The notes under the pieces: model-generated | Databases searched by the model: none | What the model saw: only the letters and a program-made list of their open reading frames with translations | What the model was told of the DNA's origin: nothing | Position numbers and translations under genes: made by a program | Assembly: GCA_947491475.1 (NCBI GenBank) | Contig: CANLKN010000026.1 | Coordinates: 1 to 39,921 of the forward strand | From: Akkermansiaceae bacterium | GTDB lineage: Bacteria > Verrucomicrobiota > Verrucomicrobiia > Verrucomicrobiales > Akkermansiaceae | DNA length: 39,921 nt | Direction: 5' to 3' | In this document: piece by piece, positions 7,551 through 29,266 of the stretch | Layout of the letters: every line of letters starts with the position of its first letter | Numbering within the stretch: the first letter of the stretch is position 1

Positions 7551-8901
<1,351 letters not shown>

Positions 8902-11205
8902 ATGCCCAAAAGCACCCCGCCGGAAAACGACCGCCGCCGCAAGACCGCCTCTCCATCGCGCTGGCCCGGGGCGGTTTCGCTGCTGTTTTTCTGGCCGTTT
9001 CATCTGTTCAATCTGCTGACGCGTTCGTTCGGCTTTTTTACGAGGTTTTTCATTCGAGTGCTGGCTTATCCGGTGGTCGCCGGGCTCTATGCGTTGCTGT
9101 TTCTCTGGCTGGTCTATGGTTTGCGGGCCAAGCGCCATGATCTCACGCGCATTCATGAGATGCCGGAGCGTTCGATCATCCGTGATCGCCTGGGCGAGGA
9201 AATCGGCCGCATCCATGGTGAGAAGCGCTCGGTGGTGCCGTTGCGCCAGGTTTCGGAAAATTTCCGCAAGGCCATCCTCGCCCGCGAGGACGAGCGCTTC
9301 TATGCACACGGTGCCGTTGACCCCATCGGCATCGTGCGCGCCTTCACCAAAAACCTCCAAGGCAAGCGCGAGGGAGCGTCCACCATCACCCAGCAACTCG
9401 CATCCGACATCTTCCAGCTCAAGCGCGGCGAGAAACGCGGCGACCTTCCACGCCAACTCGACCGCAAGTTTCTCGAAATTGCCATCGCCATGCGGCTTGA
9501 GAGCACCTTGGAAAAAGACGAGATTCTCGAAGCCTACATCAACCAGATCAACTGGGGCCGCCAGATCAAAGGCATCGGCGAAGCATCGCGCATCTACTTC
9601 GAGAAGCACCCGTCCGAGCTCACTCTCTCGCAATCCGCCCTCCTCGCTGGAATCGTCCGCGGGCCGGATTCCTTCAATCCCTTCAAATCGATGGATGCCG
9701 CCACCCGCGAGCGCAACACCACGCTGGAGCGCATGGTCAATGCCGGGGCCATCACCCGGGCCGAGGCGGATGCCGCCAAGCTCGAGCCCATCGAGGTGCG
9801 CCCGCGCATCCGGCGTGCTGCCCGCGAGTCCTTCGCCATGGACCTGATCCGCCGCGATTTGGAAATCATCCTTGAAAAACAGGACATCGAGCTCGGCGGC
9901 CTGGAAATCATCACCACCATCGACCTGCGCATCCAACAAAAGGGCGAAGAGGCGCTCGATAAGAAACTCAGCCAGGTCGAGCGGCTATCCGGCTACTCTC
10001 ACCCCACCCGCGCCGCGTGGCAGAGGCTGCCGGAAGAAGCCCGCAAAGAGCCCCGCTACATCCAGGGCGGTGCGGTCGTTATCGAAAACCGCACCGGTGC
10101 CGTGCTCGCCGTCATCGGTGGCCGCGATGCCAACGAATCGCGCTTCAACCGCGCCAAAGACGCCAAGCGGCAGCTCGGCTCGATCTTCAAACCCTTTGTT
10201 TATCTATCCGCTTTCGACAGGGGCCTGCGCCCGGACACCCTGATCAGCGATGGCCCGATCCAGCCCGGCGAGATCAAGGGCGGCAGCCACTGGCGGCCGC
10301 GAAACTCGGATGGCAGATACGGCGGCTACATGCCCGCCTCATACGGACTGATCCGCTCACGCAACACCATGTCGGTGAGAGTGGGCGATCATGCGGGTAT
10401 CCCACGCGTGGCGGAAGTCGCCAAAGCCGCCGGATTCACCACCCCCATGCCGCAAAACCCCTCGTCCTTCCTCGGCTCATGGGAGGCCTCACCTTGGGAA
10501 GTGGCCACGGCCTACACCATTTTCCCCAACGACGGCGTCCGCTACCGGCCCTATCTGATATCGGAAATCCGGGACCGCGATGGCAATGTGCTCTACTCCA
10601 CCCTGCCGCTCTCCTATCAGGCGGCATCCGGCGGCTCCGCGTGGTCGGTCTCGCGCATTCTCAACGAGGTGGCCACGCGCGGCACCGCTGCTTCGGTGAG
10701 AAGACTCGGTTTCGAAAAACCCTGCGGCGCCAAGACCGGCACCACCAATGATTTCAAGGATGCATGGTTTGCCGGATACACCTCCAGCCTTACCTGCGCG
10801 GTGTGGATCGGCTTTGATAAACCCAAAAAAACCATCCACGGCGGCTTTGGCTCGGTGCTCTCGCTGCCGGTGTGGGTGGACATCATGAAAACCGCCGACC
10901 GCCTTGGCTACAAGGCCGGCAAGCTTCACACCAGGGTCAATCTCGTCAGCATGGACCTCTGCCGCCTTTCGGGAAAACGCGCCACCTCCGGCTGTGCGGA
11001 AGCCGGCACCGCCCATACCGCTCAGGTCCCGTCCGATATCGCGCTGCCTGAAAACGATTTCTGCCCGATCCATCCGGCCCGCGCCCGGGCGGTGGTCGAG
11101 GAGTCCGCCGCCTCACCACCGCGCGCCCAACCCGTAATGCCACCTGCGCCACCGCGCGCCCTGCCAGTGGAAGAACGCCCGCCTCGGGCCCTGCCGGTGG
11201 ATTGA
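8902..11205 (+). CDS. Bifunctional class A penicillin-binding protein, all motifs intact
   Basis: 767 residues from ATG 8902. An upstream in-frame start at 8788 is rejected because it adds an unlikely leader before the charged N-terminus. A basic start is followed by a hydrophobic anchor region (about residues 25-80). The glycosyltransferase domain has REDERF (catalytic Glu129) and GASTITQQLA. The transpeptidase domain has the nucleophile in GSIFKPF (Ser427, Lys430), SRN (Ser486, Asn488) and KTGTTNDFKDAWFAGYT (Lys611). The tail is proline-rich with three PPRA(Q/L)PV repeats. It polymerises glycan strands from lipid II and crosslinks the peptides at the outer face of the inner membrane. A second PBP gene follows 46 bases later, probably in one transcript. 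Confidence 0.95.
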   Translation: MPKSTPPENDRRRKTASPSRWPGAVSLLFFWPFHLFNLLTRSFGFFTRFFIRVLAYPVVAGLYALLFLWLVYGLRAKRHDLTRIHEMPERSIIRDRLGEEIGRIHGEKRSVVPLRQVSENFRKAILAREDERFYAHGAVDPIGIVRAFTKNLQGKREGASTITQQLASDIFQLKRGEKRGDLPRQLDRKFLEIAIAMRLESTLEKDEILEAYINQINWGRQIKGIGEASRIYFEKHPSELTLSQSALLAGIVRGPDSFNPFKSMDAATRERNTTLERMVNAGAITRAEADAAKLEPIEVRPRIRRAARESFAMDLIRRDLEIILEKQDIELGGLEIITTIDLRIQQKGEEALDKKLSQVERLSGYSHPTRAAWQRLPEEARKEPRYIQGGAVVIENRTGAVLAVIGGRDANESRFNRAKDAKRQLGSIFKPFVYLSAFDRGLRPDTLISDGPIQPGEIKGGSHWRPRNSDGRYGGYMPASYGLIRSRNTMSVRVGDHAGIPRVAEVAKAAGFTTPMPQNPSSFLGSWEASPWEVATAYTIFPNDGVRYRPYLISEIRDRDGNVLYSTLPLSYQAASGGSAWSVSRILNEVATRGTAASVRRLGFEKPCGAKTGTTNDFKDAWFAGYTSSLTCAVWIGFDKPKKTIHGGFGSVLSLPVWVDIMKTADRLGYKAGKLHTRVNLVSMDLCRLSGKRATSGCAEAGTAHTAQVPSDIALPENDFCPIHPARARAVVEESAASPPRAQPVMPPAPPRALPVEERPPRALPVD

Positions 11206-11251
11206 TATGGCATATCCCGAATTTCAAATTTCAAATCTCCCATCCCCACCC

Positions 11252-12961
11252 ATGTCCACCTGGCGTCCCATCAGTCCTCCGCCGCTCTGGAAGCGTTGTC
11301 TTCCCGAGTTTCTGCATGGACCGGTGCGTCTTGGTTTCCAGCTTGGGTTACTGGGCTTGGTCGTTCTAACAGGAATCGGCTTCTTTTATTTCATGCTGGC
11401 GATGCGCTTCGATCTCGACGAGGTCGCCAAGCTGCCGTCGGGCACCGTTTTTTACGACCGCAAGGGCGAGGAAATCGTCGTGCCCGGCGGTTCCGGACGC
11501 CGTCTGGTAGAGCGCGCGGACATCCCGGACTTTCTGGTGAAATCGTTGCTGGCACGCGAGGACGCGCGCTTTTTCGAGCATCACGGCGTGGATTTCCGCG
11601 GTCTCGCCCGTGCCACTGTGAGAAACCTCAAGGATTGGGATTTCACCCAGGGCGCGTCCACGCTGAGCATGCAGCTCGCTCGCAACAGCTTTGAAATCCG
11701 CCAGAAATCGCTGCACCGCAAAGCTCTCGAAATCGCTCTCACCCTGCGTGTCGAAAACCGCTACTCGAAGGATGAAATCCTCACCCATTACCTCAACCGC
11801 ATTTACTTCGGCGCGGGCGCTTATGGCATCGAGCAGGCGGCGCGCACCTACTTCGGCAGGCCGTCCCGAGATCTCACCGACGCCGAGAGCGCGTTGCTCG
11901 CCGGCATCATCCGCGGGCCGCACCTTTTCTCGCCGCTGCGCAAGCCGGAGGCGGCGCTCGAACAACGCCGCCAGACACTCGACCGCATGGCGGCCATGGG
12001 TTTCATCAACAAGGAGCAACGCGATGCCATCAATGCGCAGCCACTCAAGCTCGTGACCGACGAGCCTACGGGCAACCAAACCACTTACGCCCTCAAAGCC
12101 GTGGAGCGCGAACTCGACCGCATTCTCGACGAGAACAAGCTTCCGCCCGGAGGCTTGCAAATCCAGACCACCCTCGATCTTGCCTGGCAGCAGCGGCTTG
12201 AAACCGAGCTCAACCACGCGGTAGAGGCGCTGGAGAAGGAGAAAAACTGGCCGCATCCGGTGGCGGCGGATCATGTGCCCGGCGCAGAGACGGCTTACGT
12301 GCAATACGGGGCCATCACCACCGAGACCCGCAGCGGTGCGATCCTGGCGCTGATCGGTGGCCGGAATTACAACCACTCCAGCCTGGACCGCACGTTTTCC
12401 ACGCGGGATCTTGGATCCGCTTTCGAGCCTTTTGTGGCCGCCGCGGCAGCCGAGCGCGGCAAAATCGTGTTGCCCGGCAGGCCGGTGCAAACCGGCCGCC
12501 AGATCGGGCCGGCGGAAGTCGAGCGCCTTGCCAAGCGCTGCGGCATCCAAGGGCCGTTTGTGCAAAGCGAAGACTTGTTCCGCGGTGCGGTGGCGGCCAC
12601 GCCGCGCCAGATGTCCATCGGTCTCGCCACCTTGGGAAACAAGGGCAAGCGCCCGAAACCCTACCTCATCCAGGAAATCAGGGATGCCTCTGGAGCCGTG
12701 ATTTACACCGCCAAAACCCAGCTCACCCAGGCGCTCAGCCCGCCTGCCGCGCTTGACGCCACCAGCGTGTTGAGCCGCAAGAACAACACCCGCACCTTCA
12801 CCGGGGCCACCGGTTCCGAACGCGATGCATGGACGCTGCGCCTCGGCCCCAGCGGTGCCACCGCCATCTGGATCGGCTTCGACAAGCCCACCGCCATCGC
12901 TCCCGAGCCGCGGCTCAAATCGCTGCTGGACGAGTTTGTCAACCGCCTCGGCAACGGGTGA
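11252..12961 (+). CDS. Class A PBP-like glycosyltransferase with a degenerate transpeptidase domain
   Basis: 569 residues from ATG 11252 (a start at 11207 is possible but adds 15 residues of unlikely leader). After an anchor (GLLGLVVLTGIGFFYFMLAM) the glycosyltransferase domain is complete: REDARFFEHHGVD (catalytic Glu103) and GASTLSMQLARN. The transpeptidase domain is broken. The SxxK motif reads GSAFEPF, so Ser389 stays but Lys becomes Glu392. The segment that should carry SxN is missing (about 50 residues shorter here than in the upstream PBP). KTG has become ATG (Ala519). The fold end IWIGFD is kept. It is predicted to make glycan strands but not crosslinks. It follows the intact PBP and is convergent with the LysM protein, seven bases apart. 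Confidence 0.9.
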   Translation: MSTWRPISPPPLWKRCLPEFLHGPVRLGFQLGLLGLVVLTGIGFFYFMLAMRFDLDEVAKLPSGTVFYDRKGEEIVVPGGSGRRLVERADIPDFLVKSLLAREDARFFEHHGVDFRGLARATVRNLKDWDFTQGASTLSMQLARNSFEIRQKSLHRKALEIALTLRVENRYSKDEILTHYLNRIYFGAGAYGIEQAARTYFGRPSRDLTDAESALLAGIIRGPHLFSPLRKPEAALEQRRQTLDRMAAMGFINKEQRDAINAQPLKLVTDEPTGNQTTYALKAVERELDRILDENKLPPGGLQIQTTLDLAWQQRLETELNHAVEALEKEKNWPHPVAADHVPGAETAYVQYGAITTETRSGAILALIGGRNYNHSSLDRTFSTRDLGSAFEPFVAAAAAERGKIVLPGRPVQTGRQIGPAEVERLAKRCGIQGPFVQSEDLFRGAVAATPRQMSIGLATLGNKGKRPKPYLIQEIRDASGAVIYTAKTQLTQALSPPAALDATSVLSRKNNTRTFTGATGSERDAWTLRLGPSGATAIWIGFDKPTAIAPEPRLKSLLDEFVNRLGNG

Positions 12962-23119: not shown

Positions 23120-25366
23120 TTACCTGCGCATGGGGACCGGACGGCGGCGGCGCATCAATCCCGCCGCCAGCAAGCCCCCGACCATCAGGGTGCTTGGCTC
23201 GGGAATTGCCGACCAGATCAGGTTGCCGCCGCTGATCGAGAATGTTCCATACGACGCGAGTTCCGTGGAAGTCCATGTCTTGCCATCATCCTTGAACTGG
23301 AAATTGGCCGGGTTGAATCCGCTGATGTCCTTGCCACCGAAGATGTCGCTCCATGTCCTGCTCTGTTCCCAGAAGCTGGTGCCGAATCCACTGCTGCTGA
23401 CAATGCTGAAAATCGCGCCGTTGTTCACCGTCAGGTTGCCGCCCACTGCGACGCGGTCGTATGTTTCCGCCGCAGTGTTGATGTCCCATTCGAAGATGGA
23501 TTTATCTCCGTAGGTAAGCGCTGATCCGAACCGATGCAGGCCGGTGCTGCCAGCCGTGCCGTTGCCTACCGAATGGCGGCCATTGATGGTTGTGTTACCC
23601 GAAATGTTGCCGGTCCCGCCCTCATGGCTGCCTATCAGATTGGAATCAACCCTTACGATACTCGTTCCCGTTCCGGAGCCTGTGGTGTTGCTGACGTTGA
23701 GCACGCCTTGGCGCACCATGGTGGTGCCGGAGTAGTTATTCGCATTAGTCAAGGTGAGCGTGGTGTTGATGCCTGATATCGGATTGGACTTGTCGAGACC
23801 GCCGCTGCCGGTCAGCACCACATTGTCAAAAACGCCGTCATAATAATAGTAGCGGTCGCCTATCGTGATGGTGCCATCCATCACCTTGCCACCGTGTTGA
23901 TAGATGGCGCGTCTTGATTGGCTGGTTTCGTTCAAATCCAGCGTTCCGCCGTATATTTCCAGATGTCCGGTAGGCGAAGTCGCCCCAAGGGCGTTGTTAG
24001 TCTCCGTGCGGATGGTGCCATCCATCAGGGAGACGGTGCCCAAGAAGGTGTTTGTGGTGCGAAGCGCGAGCGTGCCATTTCCGGTTTTCCTGATTCCACC
24101 AGCGCCGCCAATCGTCTGGTCGATCGTTAACAGGCCGGTGCCGTTGTGCGCGATGAGCATGTTCGAGTTAAACGTCACCGAGCCTCCTGCCCCACCGCCA
24201 ATCGTGATGTTGTTGGCGCTTGCCTCGCGCACAAATATGGATGAGCCGTCGCCAACCGCCTCAAACCGGAGATTCGTCCCAACGGTTCCATCGGCCGTCG
24301 TCGTTGTGCGCAGCGTGATGTCGCCCGCAGTGGCACCACTGAATTCGAGTGATCGAATGGTCCGGTTATCACCTAGAAAGTTCACCAGCCTGTCGGCAGC
24401 TGGGGCGGTGAAAACCAGATCCGCCTGTCCCCCGAAAACCGGCAGGCCGTTCACCCAATTGTCCGCTTGGCCCCAGTTGCTGCTGCCGGCGTCGCCGCCA
24501 TCCCAAGTGTAGCTGCTCGCGTCGGATTGGGTCACCACCAGATTGCGGATCTCCTGGTTGGAGGAAGCGGCTCCTGTTCCTGCGGTGAAGCCGAACATCA
24601 CTTCATCGGGGTATGGCAGGTCAAAATCATCCAGAACCAGCTTCTCCCATTTTCCGCCGGCATCGGTCCATGCGACCGAAAGCGTCTTATCGGGGGCAAT
24701 TTCGATGCGCGCACTGTGGATCGTCACATTAGCGCGCGTCTGTTGATCACGTGTGAAAAAGGCATCGAGCGAGCCGGTGCCCTGAATGAATTCATAGCCG
24801 GATTGACGGTCCGCGCCCATCGGTCCGCGGACAGCGATTGAGTTTCGGCGGCGCCCGGGCCCTTCTTCACGTCCTTCTGTCGCGGCGGAAAAGTTGCCGA
24901 ACGAGTCAAATCCGATGCCAACAATCGCATTGCTAAGCCCGTTGATGTTGGTCCTCTGGGCATAGCCGAGCGACCCGCCATAGCCACCCGGGCCAGGTGT
25001 TGCGGTCGGTTCGAAAATAGCCAGTGTGAAGCCGTCTCCGGCATCGCGCCTTGCCGTTGTCCAAACCGCGAAATCAAAGTTGAATGCCAACCCGCCCGTC
25101 GATGCAATTGGCGTGTTGTAATAGACAAAGGAGTTCTGATTTGTCGTGTCATTCGTCAGCCGCAGCCAGCCTTGATTCGTGGGGTCCACACCGCCACTGG
25201 TCAAACTGGGACCGGCTCCCTGCGTGGAAGTCAAAGTCCACCCTGCGGCAGTGTCTCCCGTGAAGGTCTCATTGACCAATGAGGTTGCTTTCAATGTTCC
25301 CGGGCTGACCAACAGGCAGAACAGTCCTACCCTCGGTAGTGCCAGAGCGCGTAAGCGACCCATCAT
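23120..25366 (-). CDS. Lectin-like / autotransporter-repeat protein with PEP-CTERM tail
   Basis: 748 residues from ATG 25366, chosen because it starts a signal peptide (MMGRLRALALPRVGLFCLLV). A frame to 25555 adds 63 residues without sense. Residues about 30-290 look like an L-type (legume-like) lectin beta-sandwich: GLAFNFDFAVWTT, DGFTLAIFEP, LGYAQRTNINGLSNAIVGIG, VMFGFTAGTGAASSNQEIR. Then come beta-strand repeats of the autotransporter-associated type (GGAGGIRKTGNGTLAL, GSGGLDKSN, NNYSGTTMVRQGVLNVSNT). The end IPEPSTLMVGGLLAAGLMRR is a PEP-CTERM signal. It is likely a surface or matrix carbohydrate-binding protein. No autotransporter barrel is present. Confidence 0.85.
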   Translation of the reverse strand: MMGRLRALALPRVGLFCLLVSPGTLKATSLVNETFTGDTAAGWTLTSTQGAGPSLTSGGVDPTNQGWLRLTNDTTNQNSFVYYNTPIASTGGLAFNFDFAVWTTARRDAGDGFTLAIFEPTATPGPGGYGGSLGYAQRTNINGLSNAIVGIGFDSFGNFSAATEGREEGPGRRRNSIAVRGPMGADRQSGYEFIQGTGSLDAFFTRDQQTRANVTIHSARIEIAPDKTLSVAWTDAGGKWEKLVLDDFDLPYPDEVMFGFTAGTGAASSNQEIRNLVVTQSDASSYTWDGGDAGSSNWGQADNWVNGLPVFGGQADLVFTAPAADRLVNFLGDNRTIRSLEFSGATAGDITLRTTTTADGTVGTNLRFEAVGDGSSIFVREASANNITIGGGAGGSVTFNSNMLIAHNGTGLLTIDQTIGGAGGIRKTGNGTLALRTTNTFLGTVSLMDGTIRTETNNALGATSPTGHLEIYGGTLDLNETSQSRRAIYQHGGKVMDGTITIGDRYYYYDGVFDNVVLTGSGGLDKSNPISGINTTLTLTNANNYSGTTMVRQGVLNVSNTTGSGTGTSIVRVDSNLIGSHEGGTGNISGNTTINGRHSVGNGTAGSTGLHRFGSALTYGDKSIFEWDINTAAETYDRVAVGGNLTVNNGAIFSIVSSSGFGTSFWEQSRTWSDIFGGKDISGFNPANFQFKDDGKTWTSTELASYGTFSISGGNLIWSAIPEPSTLMVGGLLAAGLMRRRRPVPMRR

Positions 25367-25671
25367 CGGGCGCTTTGCCAACAGAGATGGCAAGCGATCG
25401 CGATCTGTGGCTATCCCCGACTGGCCCGGAATGATTGCCAGAAATTTGCCTTGGGGCGGAGGCCGTTTAAACAACCGGTGGCCAGACCGGAGGCAAAAGC
25501 CCCAAGTGCTGGCGCATTCAGGCGCAACGGGTGAGATACTCTGATTTTTTGACATGCAATCGCTGTCAATAAAAAATTACTCCCGAATGCGCCTTTGCAA
25601 TCCCCCCAATTGGGGTGAATTTGTAATTTAGAATTACTTACGGTGCTTCAAAACTTGGATCGGCGGCCGGA
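25367..25671. other. Intergenic region upstream of the lectin-like gene
   Basis: No gene is supported. On the minus strand TTGACA (25569-25564) is a consensus -35, but the -10 candidate 17 bases on (AATCAG) is weak. The AT-rich patch 25565-25640 contrasts with the flanks and probably holds the promoter. The methyltransferase stop codon lies at its right end. Confidence 0.35.
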
Positions 25672-26835
25672 TTAAGGGGTGGAATTGCGGCGATGTATTT
25701 CCAGGACTTGAAAAGCGGCGCCTAGATGGGCGGGGTGGGTGAGGGTTTGGAATTGGCGCAAAACGGCGGGTTGTGGATCGCCTTCCATTTGCATGAGCCA
25801 ATCGCGGGAGTTTTGCGTGAGCCATGAGCCTTGGCTGCGAAGCGCCACAGGCTCCCATCCGAGGCTTTGCGCGGCCTCTGCCACGGCGGTGAAATCGACG
25901 TGCGCTGTGAGGTCCACCTCTCCCGGACGAGCAAGTGGATCGTCCCCGGCGCGGTGCTGCGAAAATGTCCGCAAGGTTCCCTTGTGGCGGCCGGGATGGT
26001 AGTAGTCTTGTCGCTCGAAACCGTAGTCCAGCCAGATCATCAGTCCCGAACCCAACGCCGCTGCGAGTGGGCCGAGGAACTCCCGGTAGCCGGTGCGGAT
26101 TTCACTGCGGTAGCCATCTGCAAACCCGCCGCCCAGTCTGGCCAAGGCTGTTTTTAAATCCGGGTTTCGGATTTCAACCAAATTGAATACCAAACGGTCG
26201 GAACCGCCTAATGAAACCTGTCTTTCAAACCAACGGTCGTCGTGCCATTCGATGAGATGGCAGGGCAAGGCATCGAGGACTTCATTGCCGAAGGCGATGC
26301 CGGGGAGGGGGTCGTCGATGAGTTCTGTGGGGTGATTGGGAAAATGGACTTTTCCGGCGAAGCGGCGGAGGGTTTCGCGTTGGGTGGATTGGAGGCGCGG
26401 GAGAGGTTCGGAGATGGTGTATTCGAGGGTGGAGAAGGCGCGGGCGTCGAGTTTTTCGATGGCGGTGAGCACATCGTTGGCGAGGGTGCCATCGTGAGCG
26501 CCGCATTCGAGGATGCGCCAGCGCGCGGGTTGGCCGGATTCATGCCACTCGCGCAGGAAGCGCCGGGCGAGCAACGTGCCGAAGACTGGTCCCACGCTCA
26601 CGCTGGTGAAGAAATCGCCGCTGCGGCCGACTTGGCGGGTGCTGCGGGAGTAATACCCGTCATCCGGATCATAAAGTGCGGCGGCCATGAATTCTGGAAA
26701 TGGCAGCGGGCCATCACGCACGATTTTCGCCTGGATCCGCGCCGTCAACGAAGGGGTTGCGGTGGCTGGCGGGATGGGATAGTCATATGGGCACGCAACT
26801 TCCCACGAAGATGGTGTAGATTCAGAATCCGGCAT
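25672..26835 (-). CDS. MidA/NDUFAF7-type SAM-dependent methyltransferase
   Basis: 387 residues from ATG 26835. Conserved parts are GPLPFPEFMAAALYDPDDGY (the family hallmark of this fold), GDFFTSVSVGPVFGTLLAR, the SAM loop ILECGAHDGTLANDVL, GNEVLDALPCHLIEW, and LMIWLDYGFERQDYYHP. In mitochondria the relative NDUFAF7 methylates an arginine of complex I; the bacterial role is unsettled. The start codon sits in the tetranucleotide CATG (26833-26836), which also holds the start of the divergent PBP gene. An earlier ATG at 26856 is possible but would lie inside that gene. Confidence 0.88.
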   Translation of the reverse strand: MPDSESTPSSWEVACPYDYPIPPATATPSLTARIQAKIVRDGPLPFPEFMAAALYDPDDGYYSRSTRQVGRSGDFFTSVSVGPVFGTLLARRFLREWHESGQPARWRILECGAHDGTLANDVLTAIEKLDARAFSTLEYTISEPLPRLQSTQRETLRRFAGKVHFPNHPTELIDDPLPGIAFGNEVLDALPCHLIEWHDDRWFERQVSLGGSDRLVFNLVEIRNPDLKTALARLGGGFADGYRSEIRTGYREFLGPLAAALGSGLMIWLDYGFERQDYYHPGRHKGTLRTFSQHRAGDDPLARPGEVDLTAHVDFTAVAEAAQSLGWEPVALRSQGSWLTQNSRDWLMQMEGDPQPAVLRQFQTLTHPAHLGAAFQVLEIHRRNSTP

Positions 26836-29266
26836 GGCAGACGAGAAGCAAAGCAACCGCAGGAAGGGCCGTGAGCGGCGTTTCTACAAGCGCAAAGGCT
26901 TGTGGCTCACGCTCCTCGTATTTGCCGTGGTGGCTGGCGGGGCAGGCTGGATCGTGGTGGAAAAGAAAACCCGCGAATACCGCGGCAGGGCGGCTGCTTA
27001 TGATCTGGATCACATCAATGAACTGGAAATTCCCAGCCTGATCGTGGACCGCAACGGCAAGGAGATCGGCCGGATTTTCGTGCAGAACCGCAGTGTGATT
27101 TCCATCGGCGAGGTTCCTGAAATTTTCATAGATGCCTTGCGCGCGGGAGAGGACCAGCGGTTTCTGACCCACGATGGGGTGGATTACATCGGCATTGTGC
27201 GGGCGGCTTATCTGAACTGGAAGGCGAACGAGAGGACCCAGGGTGCGAGCACGATCACGCAGCAACTCGCGCGCAATGCGTATGATCTGGAGGGTGAGCG
27301 CCGGAAAAACAACGAGACCGGCATTCAGCGCAAGCTGGTAGAGGCTTTTCTCGCGCAGCGCATCGAGAAGCGGTATTCGAAAAGGGAGATCCTCGAGTTT
27401 TACCTCAACCGGATTTATTTCGGCAGCGGCTACTATGGCATTCGTTCCGCGTCGCTCGGCTACTTCGGCAAGGAGCCGCGCGATCTGAATGCGCTGGAAA
27501 GCGCGTCGATTGTCGGTGCGATCAAGAACCCGACGAAATTTTCGCCCATCAACAATCCGGCGGCGAACCGCGCGTCGCGCAACCTGGTGCTGGGCCGGAT
27601 GGTGGATCTGGGTGTGATCAGCCGGCGGGAGAGCCGTGAGTTGATGGATGCGCCGTTGAAACTCAATCCCAACCCCCTGCGCCGCGGGACCACGCACCTT
27701 TACGAGCGGATTGCGGATGCGGTGAACGATACGCTGGGCGAGGACGCACTGGCAGCCGGTGGTTTCACCATTCACACCACGATCCTGGCGGAAGCGCAGG
27801 AAGCTGCGGAAAAATCCTTGTTGGACAGCCTGGAACGTGCCGAAGCCCACCCTGGATACCGTCGGCAGAAGCAGCGTGATTACCGCAGGGACAGCGAGAA
27901 ACCCGCCGATTACCTGCAAGGAGCGGTGTTGATGGTGGACCACGAGACGGGCGAGGTGCTGGCGCATGTGGGCGGGCGTGATTACGCGCAGGTGCCTTAT
28001 GATTTCATCGAGCTGGGCAAGCGCCCGCTGGGAACCGCGTTTTTCCCATTCATTTTCGCGGCGGGCCTGGAGCACGGTTTTACGCCCGCTTCCATGGTGG
28101 AGGACGAGCCTATGGACAACCGCTCGGTGATGGTGGGCGGCCGCGAGGGGATTCTGGGCGAATGGGGCATGGAGGTGGAATCACCGGTGTATCAGGGCAA
28201 TATCATGGTGCGCACCGCGCTGGAACATTCCAAGATCGCGGCTACCGTGCGCTTCACTGATCAAATAGGACTGCAAAAGGTGATCGACAAGGCGGTGGAC
28301 TTTGGATTCCCGCTGCAAAATGCCGAGATACTGAGGCGCGTGGCGGTGGGCTTCGAGGAAGTATCCATGAAGCAGGCGGTGCGGGCGATCAGCGCGTTTT
28401 CCTCCGGCGGCCGGCTCGGTCCGCTGAAATTGGCATATCTCGACCGGGTGGAAAGCCCGGGCGGACGAATCGTTTACCGGCGCCAGCGGGAGATTCCGGC
28501 GCGGCCGCAGGTGGTTGATGAAGCCACCGCCTGGCAGGTCCACAGCATGCTGGCCGGCTCGCTTTACCGCGGAAGCTCAAAGGGTGTGCTGGATGGTCTG
28601 TTGGAAAAACCATTCCATGGCGCAGGCAAAGGCGGCTCCACCCATGACTTCGGCGATTGCTGGTTCCTAGGCTACAACAAGCGCATCTCCTGCGGCGTGT
28701 GGACTGGTTTTCTATCATCTAACAACGAAGCGATCTATCCCGGCGCCTTCAGTCGGGATCTGGCGATGCCAGTGTGGCAGGCGGCGATGAATGCGGCGGC
28801 ACCGGCATTCGGCGGCAGTGGAATTTCGCCGCCGGAGAATGTGGTGCAGGTGCCGGTCTGCACGCATTCCGGCCAGCGCTCCACCCAGTTCTGCCAGGGA
28901 TATGTGGAGGATGCGGGCACCGGAGTGGTGCATACCCGCTCGACGGCGGTGAATGAATATTTCCGCCGTGGCACCGAGCAGTTGGCTTACTGCAATATGC
29001 ATTCGGGAGCCAGCCCGGATGTGTCCAATCCGGAGATGTCAATTCTCAACCTGCCGGCGCTCGACGCAGTGCCGGTCCGGCCGACGTCTCCGGTGTTGCT
29101 GGGTGACGATCCCTACCACACCGAGCTGCCGAGCTACGTCGCCACCGCCAGTCAGAGCGGATTGGTGCGGCGCCGCACCAACGTGCTCGACAGCCTGGAT
29201 CTCGGGAATATTGAGGAATCCATTCCGCTGAGGCGGCCGCAGCGGCTTGAAATTTCCGACGAGTGA
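26834..29266 (+). CDS. Class A PBP-like glycosyltransferase with an inactive transpeptidase domain
   Basis: 810 residues. A basic N-terminus is followed by one membrane anchor (LWLTLLVFAVVAGGAGWIVV). The glycosyltransferase is intact: GEDQRFLTHDGVD (Glu106) and GASTITQQLARN. The transpeptidase fold is full length, but the SxxK motif reads GTAFFPF (Thr401 and Phe404 replace Ser and Lys), SxN reads SKI (Ser466, Ile468) and KTG reads KGG (Lys599). The nucleophile is absent, so crosslinking and normal penicillin binding are not expected. The tail has a Cys-containing region (CTHSGQRSTQFC). It shares a CATG start with the methyltransferase gene. Confidence 0.92.
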   Translation: MADEKQSNRRKGRERRFYKRKGLWLTLLVFAVVAGGAGWIVVEKKTREYRGRAAAYDLDHINELEIPSLIVDRNGKEIGRIFVQNRSVISIGEVPEIFIDALRAGEDQRFLTHDGVDYIGIVRAAYLNWKANERTQGASTITQQLARNAYDLEGERRKNNETGIQRKLVEAFLAQRIEKRYSKREILEFYLNRIYFGSGYYGIRSASLGYFGKEPRDLNALESASIVGAIKNPTKFSPINNPAANRASRNLVLGRMVDLGVISRRESRELMDAPLKLNPNPLRRGTTHLYERIADAVNDTLGEDALAAGGFTIHTTILAEAQEAAEKSLLDSLERAEAHPGYRRQKQRDYRRDSEKPADYLQGAVLMVDHETGEVLAHVGGRDYAQVPYDFIELGKRPLGTAFFPFIFAAGLEHGFTPASMVEDEPMDNRSVMVGGREGILGEWGMEVESPVYQGNIMVRTALEHSKIAATVRFTDQIGLQKVIDKAVDFGFPLQNAEILRRVAVGFEEVSMKQAVRAISAFSSGGRLGPLKLAYLDRVESPGGRIVYRRQREIPARPQVVDEATAWQVHSMLAGSLYRGSSKGVLDGLLEKPFHGAGKGGSTHDFGDCWFLGYNKRISCGVWTGFLSSNNEAIYPGAFSRDLAMPVWQAAMNAAAPAFGGSGISPPENVVQVPVCTHSGQRSTQFCQGYVEDAGTGVVHTRSTAVNEYFRRGTEQLAYCNMHSGASPDVSNPEMSILNLPALDAVPVRPTSPVLLGDDPYHTELPSYVATASQSGLVRRRTNVLDSLDLGNIEESIPLRRPQRLEISDE

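Follow-up and report, generated by a model that had tools for sequence, protein, structure and literature searches.

A conserved lineage of class A penicillin-binding proteins with a predicted pseudo-transpeptidase domain in the Akkermansiaceae

In a 39,921 nucleotide stretch of DNA from an Akkermansiaceae bacterium (assembly GCA_947491475.1, contig CANLKN010000026.1, positions 1 to 39,921; hereafter the window), the forward-strand gene at 26834-29266, an open reading frame with an ATG start, encodes an 810 residue homologue of class A penicillin-binding proteins (PBPs) that we call PBP-Q. It joins a glycosyltransferase (GT) domain with an intact catalytic Glu to a transpeptidase (TP) domain whose SxxK, SxN and KTG motifs are all altered. 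Our comparisons across relatives argue that this is no isolated oddity and that, as judged from the sequences, a natural and conserved pseudo-transpeptidase PBP lineage is real, in which the crosslinking half of the protein has probably been retained for a purpose other than crosslinking.

The GT domain (residues 75-256, 27056-27601) matches Pfam Transgly (PF00912) at 191.2 bits and keeps Glu106, which is Glu in 130 of the 131 orthologue sequences and falls into a gap in the one left, a partial sequence; GT motif residues do not vary at all across 25 sequences. The TP-homologous domain (residues 363-615, 27920-28678) is recognised by PF00905 at 36 bits, a weak match that passes the cut-off of 22.1 (PBP-A, the active class A PBP of the window, reaches 92.9). 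When PBP-Q is aligned to solved PBP1a chains and to PBP-A, its GTAFFPF lies opposite GSSFKPF-type sequence, SKI opposite SRN and KGG opposite KTG. Together with an alignment of relatives, this places the former SxxK site at T401-A-F-F404 (28034-28045), the former SxN site at S466-K467-I468 (28229-28237) and the former KTG site at K599-G600-G601 (28628-28636). Ser401, Lys404, Asn468 and Thr600 are lost, while the SxN Ser (S466), the KTG Lys (K599) and G601 survive; from the set expected of a bifunctional class A PBP, PBP-Q has the GT51 Glu and the PF00905 fold and none of the three TP motifs. Neither available subfamily model claims it: PBP-Q scores 399.7 bits against TIGR02074 (PBP_1a_fam; cut-off 508.75), under which PBP-A (493.5) likewise falls, and 101.3 bits against the monofunctional glycosyltransferase model TIGR02070 (cut-off 182.65), the TP domain being present. 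An earlier note on this DNA had singled out Glu106, T401, F404, I468 and KGG, and our alignments place each of them exactly where it did; with its claim that no acyl-enzyme can form we agree to the extent that canonical chemistry would not be expected without Ser and Lys.

All 145 genomes searched in the family gave matches, the best of them at orthologue level (E <=4e-133) in 139, and the named relatives include Luteolibacter and Akkermansiaceae bacterium. Loci L021-L024 and L028 bear the name Akkermansia muciniphila, or a Verrucomicrobiae name, solely through the titles of MAGs. After rows with identical last 400 residues had been merged, 72 non-identical family sequences could be counted. 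Residue 401 is Thr in every one of them, the former Lys at 404 is always replaced by a hydrophobic residue (F 51, L 17, Y 2, I 2) and the former Asn at 468 is I in 62, V in nine and L in one. Retained, by contrast with these losses, are S466 (71/72), K467 (72/72) and K599 (72/72). Residue 600 varies (G 33, T 30, S 8, gap 1), so that KGG is confined to part of the family, whereas every family sequence examined has Thr401 and is without the Lys and the Asn. In the same alignment the PBP-A-type paralogues are fully canonical (29 of 29). The note had reckoned with close relatives that keep the normal Ser and Lys, which would have pointed to a recent mutation; none of the 72 sequences has either residue, and since the losses are common to all of them, both recent mutation and sequencing error can be ruled out.

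The altered domain is under constraint much like that on its active paralogue. Over 276 pairs from 24 genomes that carry both genes, mean identity is 0.549 (GT) and 0.484 (TP) for PBP-Q and 0.579 (GT) and 0.505 (TP) for the PBP-A type, giving mean TP/GT ratios of 0.885 versus 0.878; these ratios describe the lineage at large, as most of the 24 genomes lie outside the family and include TxxK members and one canonical member. For the family alone, 65 sequences (2080 pairs) give identities of 0.630 for GT, 0.547 for TP and 0.375 for the tail from residue 726. Among the 40 closest PBP-Q pairs dN/dS ranges from 0.022 to 0.196 in the TP region and from 0.011 to 0.171 in the GT region, for those pairs in which it is computable, saturated synonymous distances yielding no value in some. 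Wherever the sequence of a family member is complete, its TP domain is full length. Together, the open frame, the low dN/dS and a constraint matching that of the paralogue rule out a pseudogene.

Comparison of the 131 PBP-Q rows with the 29 PBP-A-type rows shows where the two TP domains part. Fifteen conserved positions are held in common, one is switched (Thr401 for Ser) and a set specific to PBP-Q gathers in a loop, namely G439 (a gap in PBP-A), G442, E443, W444, G445 and E447. This loop, GILGEWGME in PBP-Q (residues 439-447, 28148-28174), has a GILGEW-like counterpart (GILGEWGxE) in 124 of the 131 PBP-Q sequences versus 0 of 29 of the PBP-A type. A second such element lies in the C-terminal tail, where PBP-Q carries GDDPY (residues 757-761, 29102-29116; tail pLDDT <50), DPY being found within the last 150 residues of 115/131 versus 0/29. 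The loop is present in TxxK and in canonical PBP-Q members too, and loop and tail persist with or without the catalytic residues. As these elements are independent of TP chemistry, the TP domain may be read as a docking or control module. For the earlier suggestion that the domain is retained for a structural or regulatory job this means that purifying selection on it is borne out, while the job itself is something we infer.

The lineage runs deep, with orthologue-level matches in other families of the order and also in further orders of the class. In a class-wide draw of 113 genomes, 34 have such a match (18 of them from the own family) and 53 have no match at all. Outside the class, the best match in 64 genomes drawn (153.6 bits) stays under orthologue level. 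In a tree inferred by a quick method without bootstrap after removal of the motif columns, 77 PBP-Q rows are split from 22 other class A PBP rows by a branch with SH-aLRT 100; its rows (76+18+5) are what a redundancy and gap filter left of 130+29+5, and one sequence (L140) that fell outside PBP-Q by BLAST score was reassigned from its tree position, bringing PBP-Q to 131. Thr401 is found in 129 of these 131 rows, position 404 takes nine residue types, and catalytic loss is graded. Among the 59 rows outside the family the Lys position reads T 24, L 13, K 12, I 4, M 2, F 2, Q 1 and A 1, the Asn of SxN is retained in 45, and nine rows have TxxK/SxN/KTG, altered at Ser alone. Thr together with Lys is kept by all four sequences of genus g42 and all nine of genus g32 (one of which ends before KTG); one further sequence (L176) has Ser without Lys, a second from the same genus (L247) having Thr. 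The tree requires at least 3 changes for Ser/Thr, 6 for the presence or absence of Lys and 9 for that of Asn. A single basal change from Ser to Thr followed by two returns would be its simplest reading, the direction remaining a proposal. Separately, one genome with ordinary PBP-Q and PBP-A genes was seen to carry, in addition, a fast-evolving paralogue of the PBP-Q lineage (L146; G147 C1:363000-365900), whose motif positions read TAFL, GKT and WGG.

What PBP-Q might do with such a domain has to be considered alongside the other wall enzymes of its genome. PBP-A (8788-11205, forward strand; its true start may lie downstream of the listed GTG) has intact SIFK/SRN/KTG and is followed, one base on, by PBP-B (11207-12961, forward strand), a second class A PBP homologue whose shortened TP domain (24.2 bits for PF00905) is without the motifs. 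PBP-B, which the note's entry on PBP-Q leaves unmentioned, is conserved in the family: in 30 loci from family genomes, the window's own included, it has E or S at the Lys position, no SxN block and ATG or ATS in place of KTG. By these motifs the genome is one with two separate class A PBPs whose TP domains are predicted to be dead and one live class A PBP of PBP1A type. It gives six PF00905 matches, among them a PBP1C-like protein (SALK/SLN/KTG) and three proteins of class B type with SSN or SCN, KTG and, by visual reading, SxxK, besides 10 YkuD and 2 SEDS matches. Given these intact transpeptidases and YkuD proteins, crosslinking capacity is ample without PBP-Q. As a side observation, ten YkuD (L,D-transpeptidase) against two SEDS matches make this genome rich in possible beta-lactam-insensitive crosslinkers. 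Another is that 53 of the 113 class genomes have no class A PBP profile match, several members of families f8, f12, f13 and f17 among them, and class A PBPs may be absent from whole families of the class.

We lean, with only a little more confidence than doubt, towards PBP-Q as a glycan polymerase whose pseudo-TP domain would act as a docking or allosteric module while other enzymes make the crosslinks. PBP-Q would then be a peptidoglycan glycosyltransferase, putatively anchored in the membrane, that carries a fused pseudo-transpeptidase; it would polymerise lipid II without crosslinking it, and the pseudo-TP domain would offer a platform to the GT domain and to other wall proteins. PBP-A, the PBP1C-like protein, some of the ten YkuD-domain proteins or the three PBPs of class B type could crosslink the strands in trans, and polymerisation by PBP-Q could continue while beta-lactams block D,D-transpeptidases. 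A structural model built from 21 sequences (mean pLDDT 73, pTM 0.62) has a helix at residues 21-55 that contains a hydrophobic stretch, seen in the model only. Its Foldseek matches comprise PBP1b, PBP1a and, at a TM score of 0.75 by target length, Listeria PBP4; class A PBPs come first (5hlb, E 2.7e-29; 3udi, E 7.0e-29). Any mechanism beyond that of a GT with a TP module unable to work canonically is one we infer.

Several points weigh against this proposal. Six of the 145 family genomes (G015, G029, G062, G091, G106, G130) are without an orthologue-level PBP-Q, their best match reaching no further than paralogue level (E between 1e-71 and 1e-91). Genus g28 has SAFK/SKN/KTG in 4/4 genomes and on these motifs is fully canonical, hence catalytic loss is not universal in the PBP-Q lineage. 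The steadiness of Thr401, S466, K467 and K599 would equally fit a working ligand site, and the structural model is poor precisely at the GILGEW loop (residues 434-450), too weak there to place it.

The ligand site leads to the rival that survives best, a sensor in which the old cleft would bind D-Ala-D-Ala stem peptides or beta-lactams non-covalently and so gate the GT domain. The polar residues that the family keeps in the old site (T401, S466, K467 and K599) and the conserved E447 of the loop speak for it. In PBPs the KTG Thr contributes to holding the carboxylate of the substrate, and its replacement by Gly in 33 of the 72 family sequences speaks against it; on balance we consider a sensor rather unlikely. 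Distinctly less probable to our minds is the idea of an ancient lineage in which the change of the catalytic Ser to Thr preceded the losses of Lys and Asn. Thr401 and the conserved loop with E447 would there form a new functional site, either that of an enzyme dependent on Thr and insensitive to beta-lactams or that of a ligand switch controlling the GT domain. If true, the TxxK members would be living intermediates.

Also very doubtful is a non-canonical enzyme with Thr401 as its nucleophile and, as its base, Lys404 in TxxK members and another residue (e.g. E447) elsewhere. It may draw on Thr401 being far more conserved than position 404, on the members from genera such as g32 and g42 that are changed at Ser alone, and on an E447 that is conserved and specific to PBP-Q. 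Yet T401 lies at the start of a modelled helix (H400-413), a position at which Thr can play a structural part, the family is also without the Asn and often has KGG for KTG, and low pLDDT leaves E447 unplaced relative to T401.

That PBP-Q exists to complex with PBP-A, a partnership raised as a possibility in the earlier note, can be weighed by gene location. PBP-Q lies about 14 kb from the PBP-A/PBP-B pair in the window, 2 kb from it in G098 and 29 kb in G031 and G040, which taken alone might favour such a complex. In seven other genomes (G019, G036, G039, G053, G141, G014, G076), however, the distance is at least 83 kb, and the overall range runs from 2 kb to >1 Mb; distances this variable mean that no conserved operon unites the three genes, and we rejected shared location as evidence of partnership. 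PBP-A instead stands in tandem with PBP-B (in the window and in G006, G039 and G125 among other places), and a dedicated complex with PBP-Q now seems improbable. Least credible of all is a decaying relic whose TP domain is jobless and on its way out, for although catalytic residues were lost stepwise (the changes at Lys and Asn on the tree) and PBP-B has shortened its TP domain further, that of PBP-Q is as constrained as the active paralogue's, with low dN/dS, full length in complete family members and conserved elements of its own.

The steady neighbour of PBP-Q is another gene altogether, a divergent MidA-like methyltransferase gene (PF02636; 25672-26835, reverse strand) that adjoins it in 21 of 23 named loci; for L023 and L029, the two exceptions, the PBP-Q match starts at contig base 203 and base 2, leaving little or no upstream DNA. 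The ATGs of both genes overlap in one CATG (26833-26836), shared by all 16 sequences inspected at the annotated start (the window and 15 loci), and the reverse frame from this CATG stays open for at least 357 codons in 15 of them, that of L013 stopping after 21. A cruder CATG scan of 48 further frames was positive in 27; it required >450 upstream bases, many of the misses being without them, and since 7 of the 27 positives are an internal Met of the methyltransferase only the 16 inspected sequences are counted. With the overlap, the promoter of each gene would need to sit within the coding region of the other. The gene at 23120-25555 (reverse strand) encodes a protein that combines a legume-lectin-like domain with a PEP-CTERM motif and a repeat of autotransporter type.

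PBP-Q offers a natural, family-wide class A PBP in which the penicillin-target site is gone while the domain is still fully constrained, with relatives graded from canonical through changed at Ser only to changed throughout. Such a natural case and its graded series make the non-crosslinking role of TP domains in glycan polymerisation, a standing question, directly testable. It also implies that PBP counts based on annotation overstate the likely beta-lactam targets in these bacteria. Parts of the literature touch on the wall enzymes of this group: Akkermansia is recorded as keeping a class A PBP in passages of one paper (PMC8406291), those of another discuss beta-lactam tolerance of other Verrucomicrobia (PMC5303756), and portions of an essential-genome study of V. 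spinosum report three COG0768 (class B) genes as essential (PMC12283558), the terms 'penicillin', 'class a' and 'mrca' not being found in the main text of the same paper. Within the titles, abstract openings and selected passages of the open-licence literature, we found no report of the PBP-Q lineage or of a class A PBP with a dead TP domain in Verrucomicrobia.

Among known systems, PBP-Q is most like PBP1a-type class A PBPs (TIGR02074; structures from E. coli, Acinetobacter and Haemophilus), with which it has the order of GT and TP domains and the fold in common and which are its best sequence and Foldseek matches, but it differs from them in having SxxK, SxN and KTG all altered. In Streptomyces, 13 of 100 class A PBP sequences are listed as exceptions without SxxK in passages of one article (PMC6273383). 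These are like PBP-Q in their altered SxxK, the likeness being one at class level, and unlike it in that SxN and KTG are mostly conserved and that the author, in the same passages, deems them able to function as PBPs. A functional parallel may come from class A PBPs inactivated at the TP site in the laboratory, as described in excerpts of three papers: wall synthesis still goes on with E. coli PBP1b S510A when it works with YcbB (PMC5089857), S. pneumoniae class B PBPs are active alongside a TP-inactivated class A PBP, the PBP2A mutant (PMC4632607), and C. difficile needs the TP activity of PBP1 for growth but not to form septa, a class B PBP acting non-catalytically there (PMC12539705). In the first two a GT domain works beside a dead TP domain, as we envisage for PBP-Q, and the C. 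difficile mutant keeps septum synthesis; unlike these states, which were made by mutation, that of PBP-Q is natural and family-wide. Monofunctional glycosyltransferases (TIGR02070), finally, would resemble PBP-Q in their predicted output of uncrosslinked glycan strands, but they have no TP domain, whereas PBP-Q keeps one at full length.

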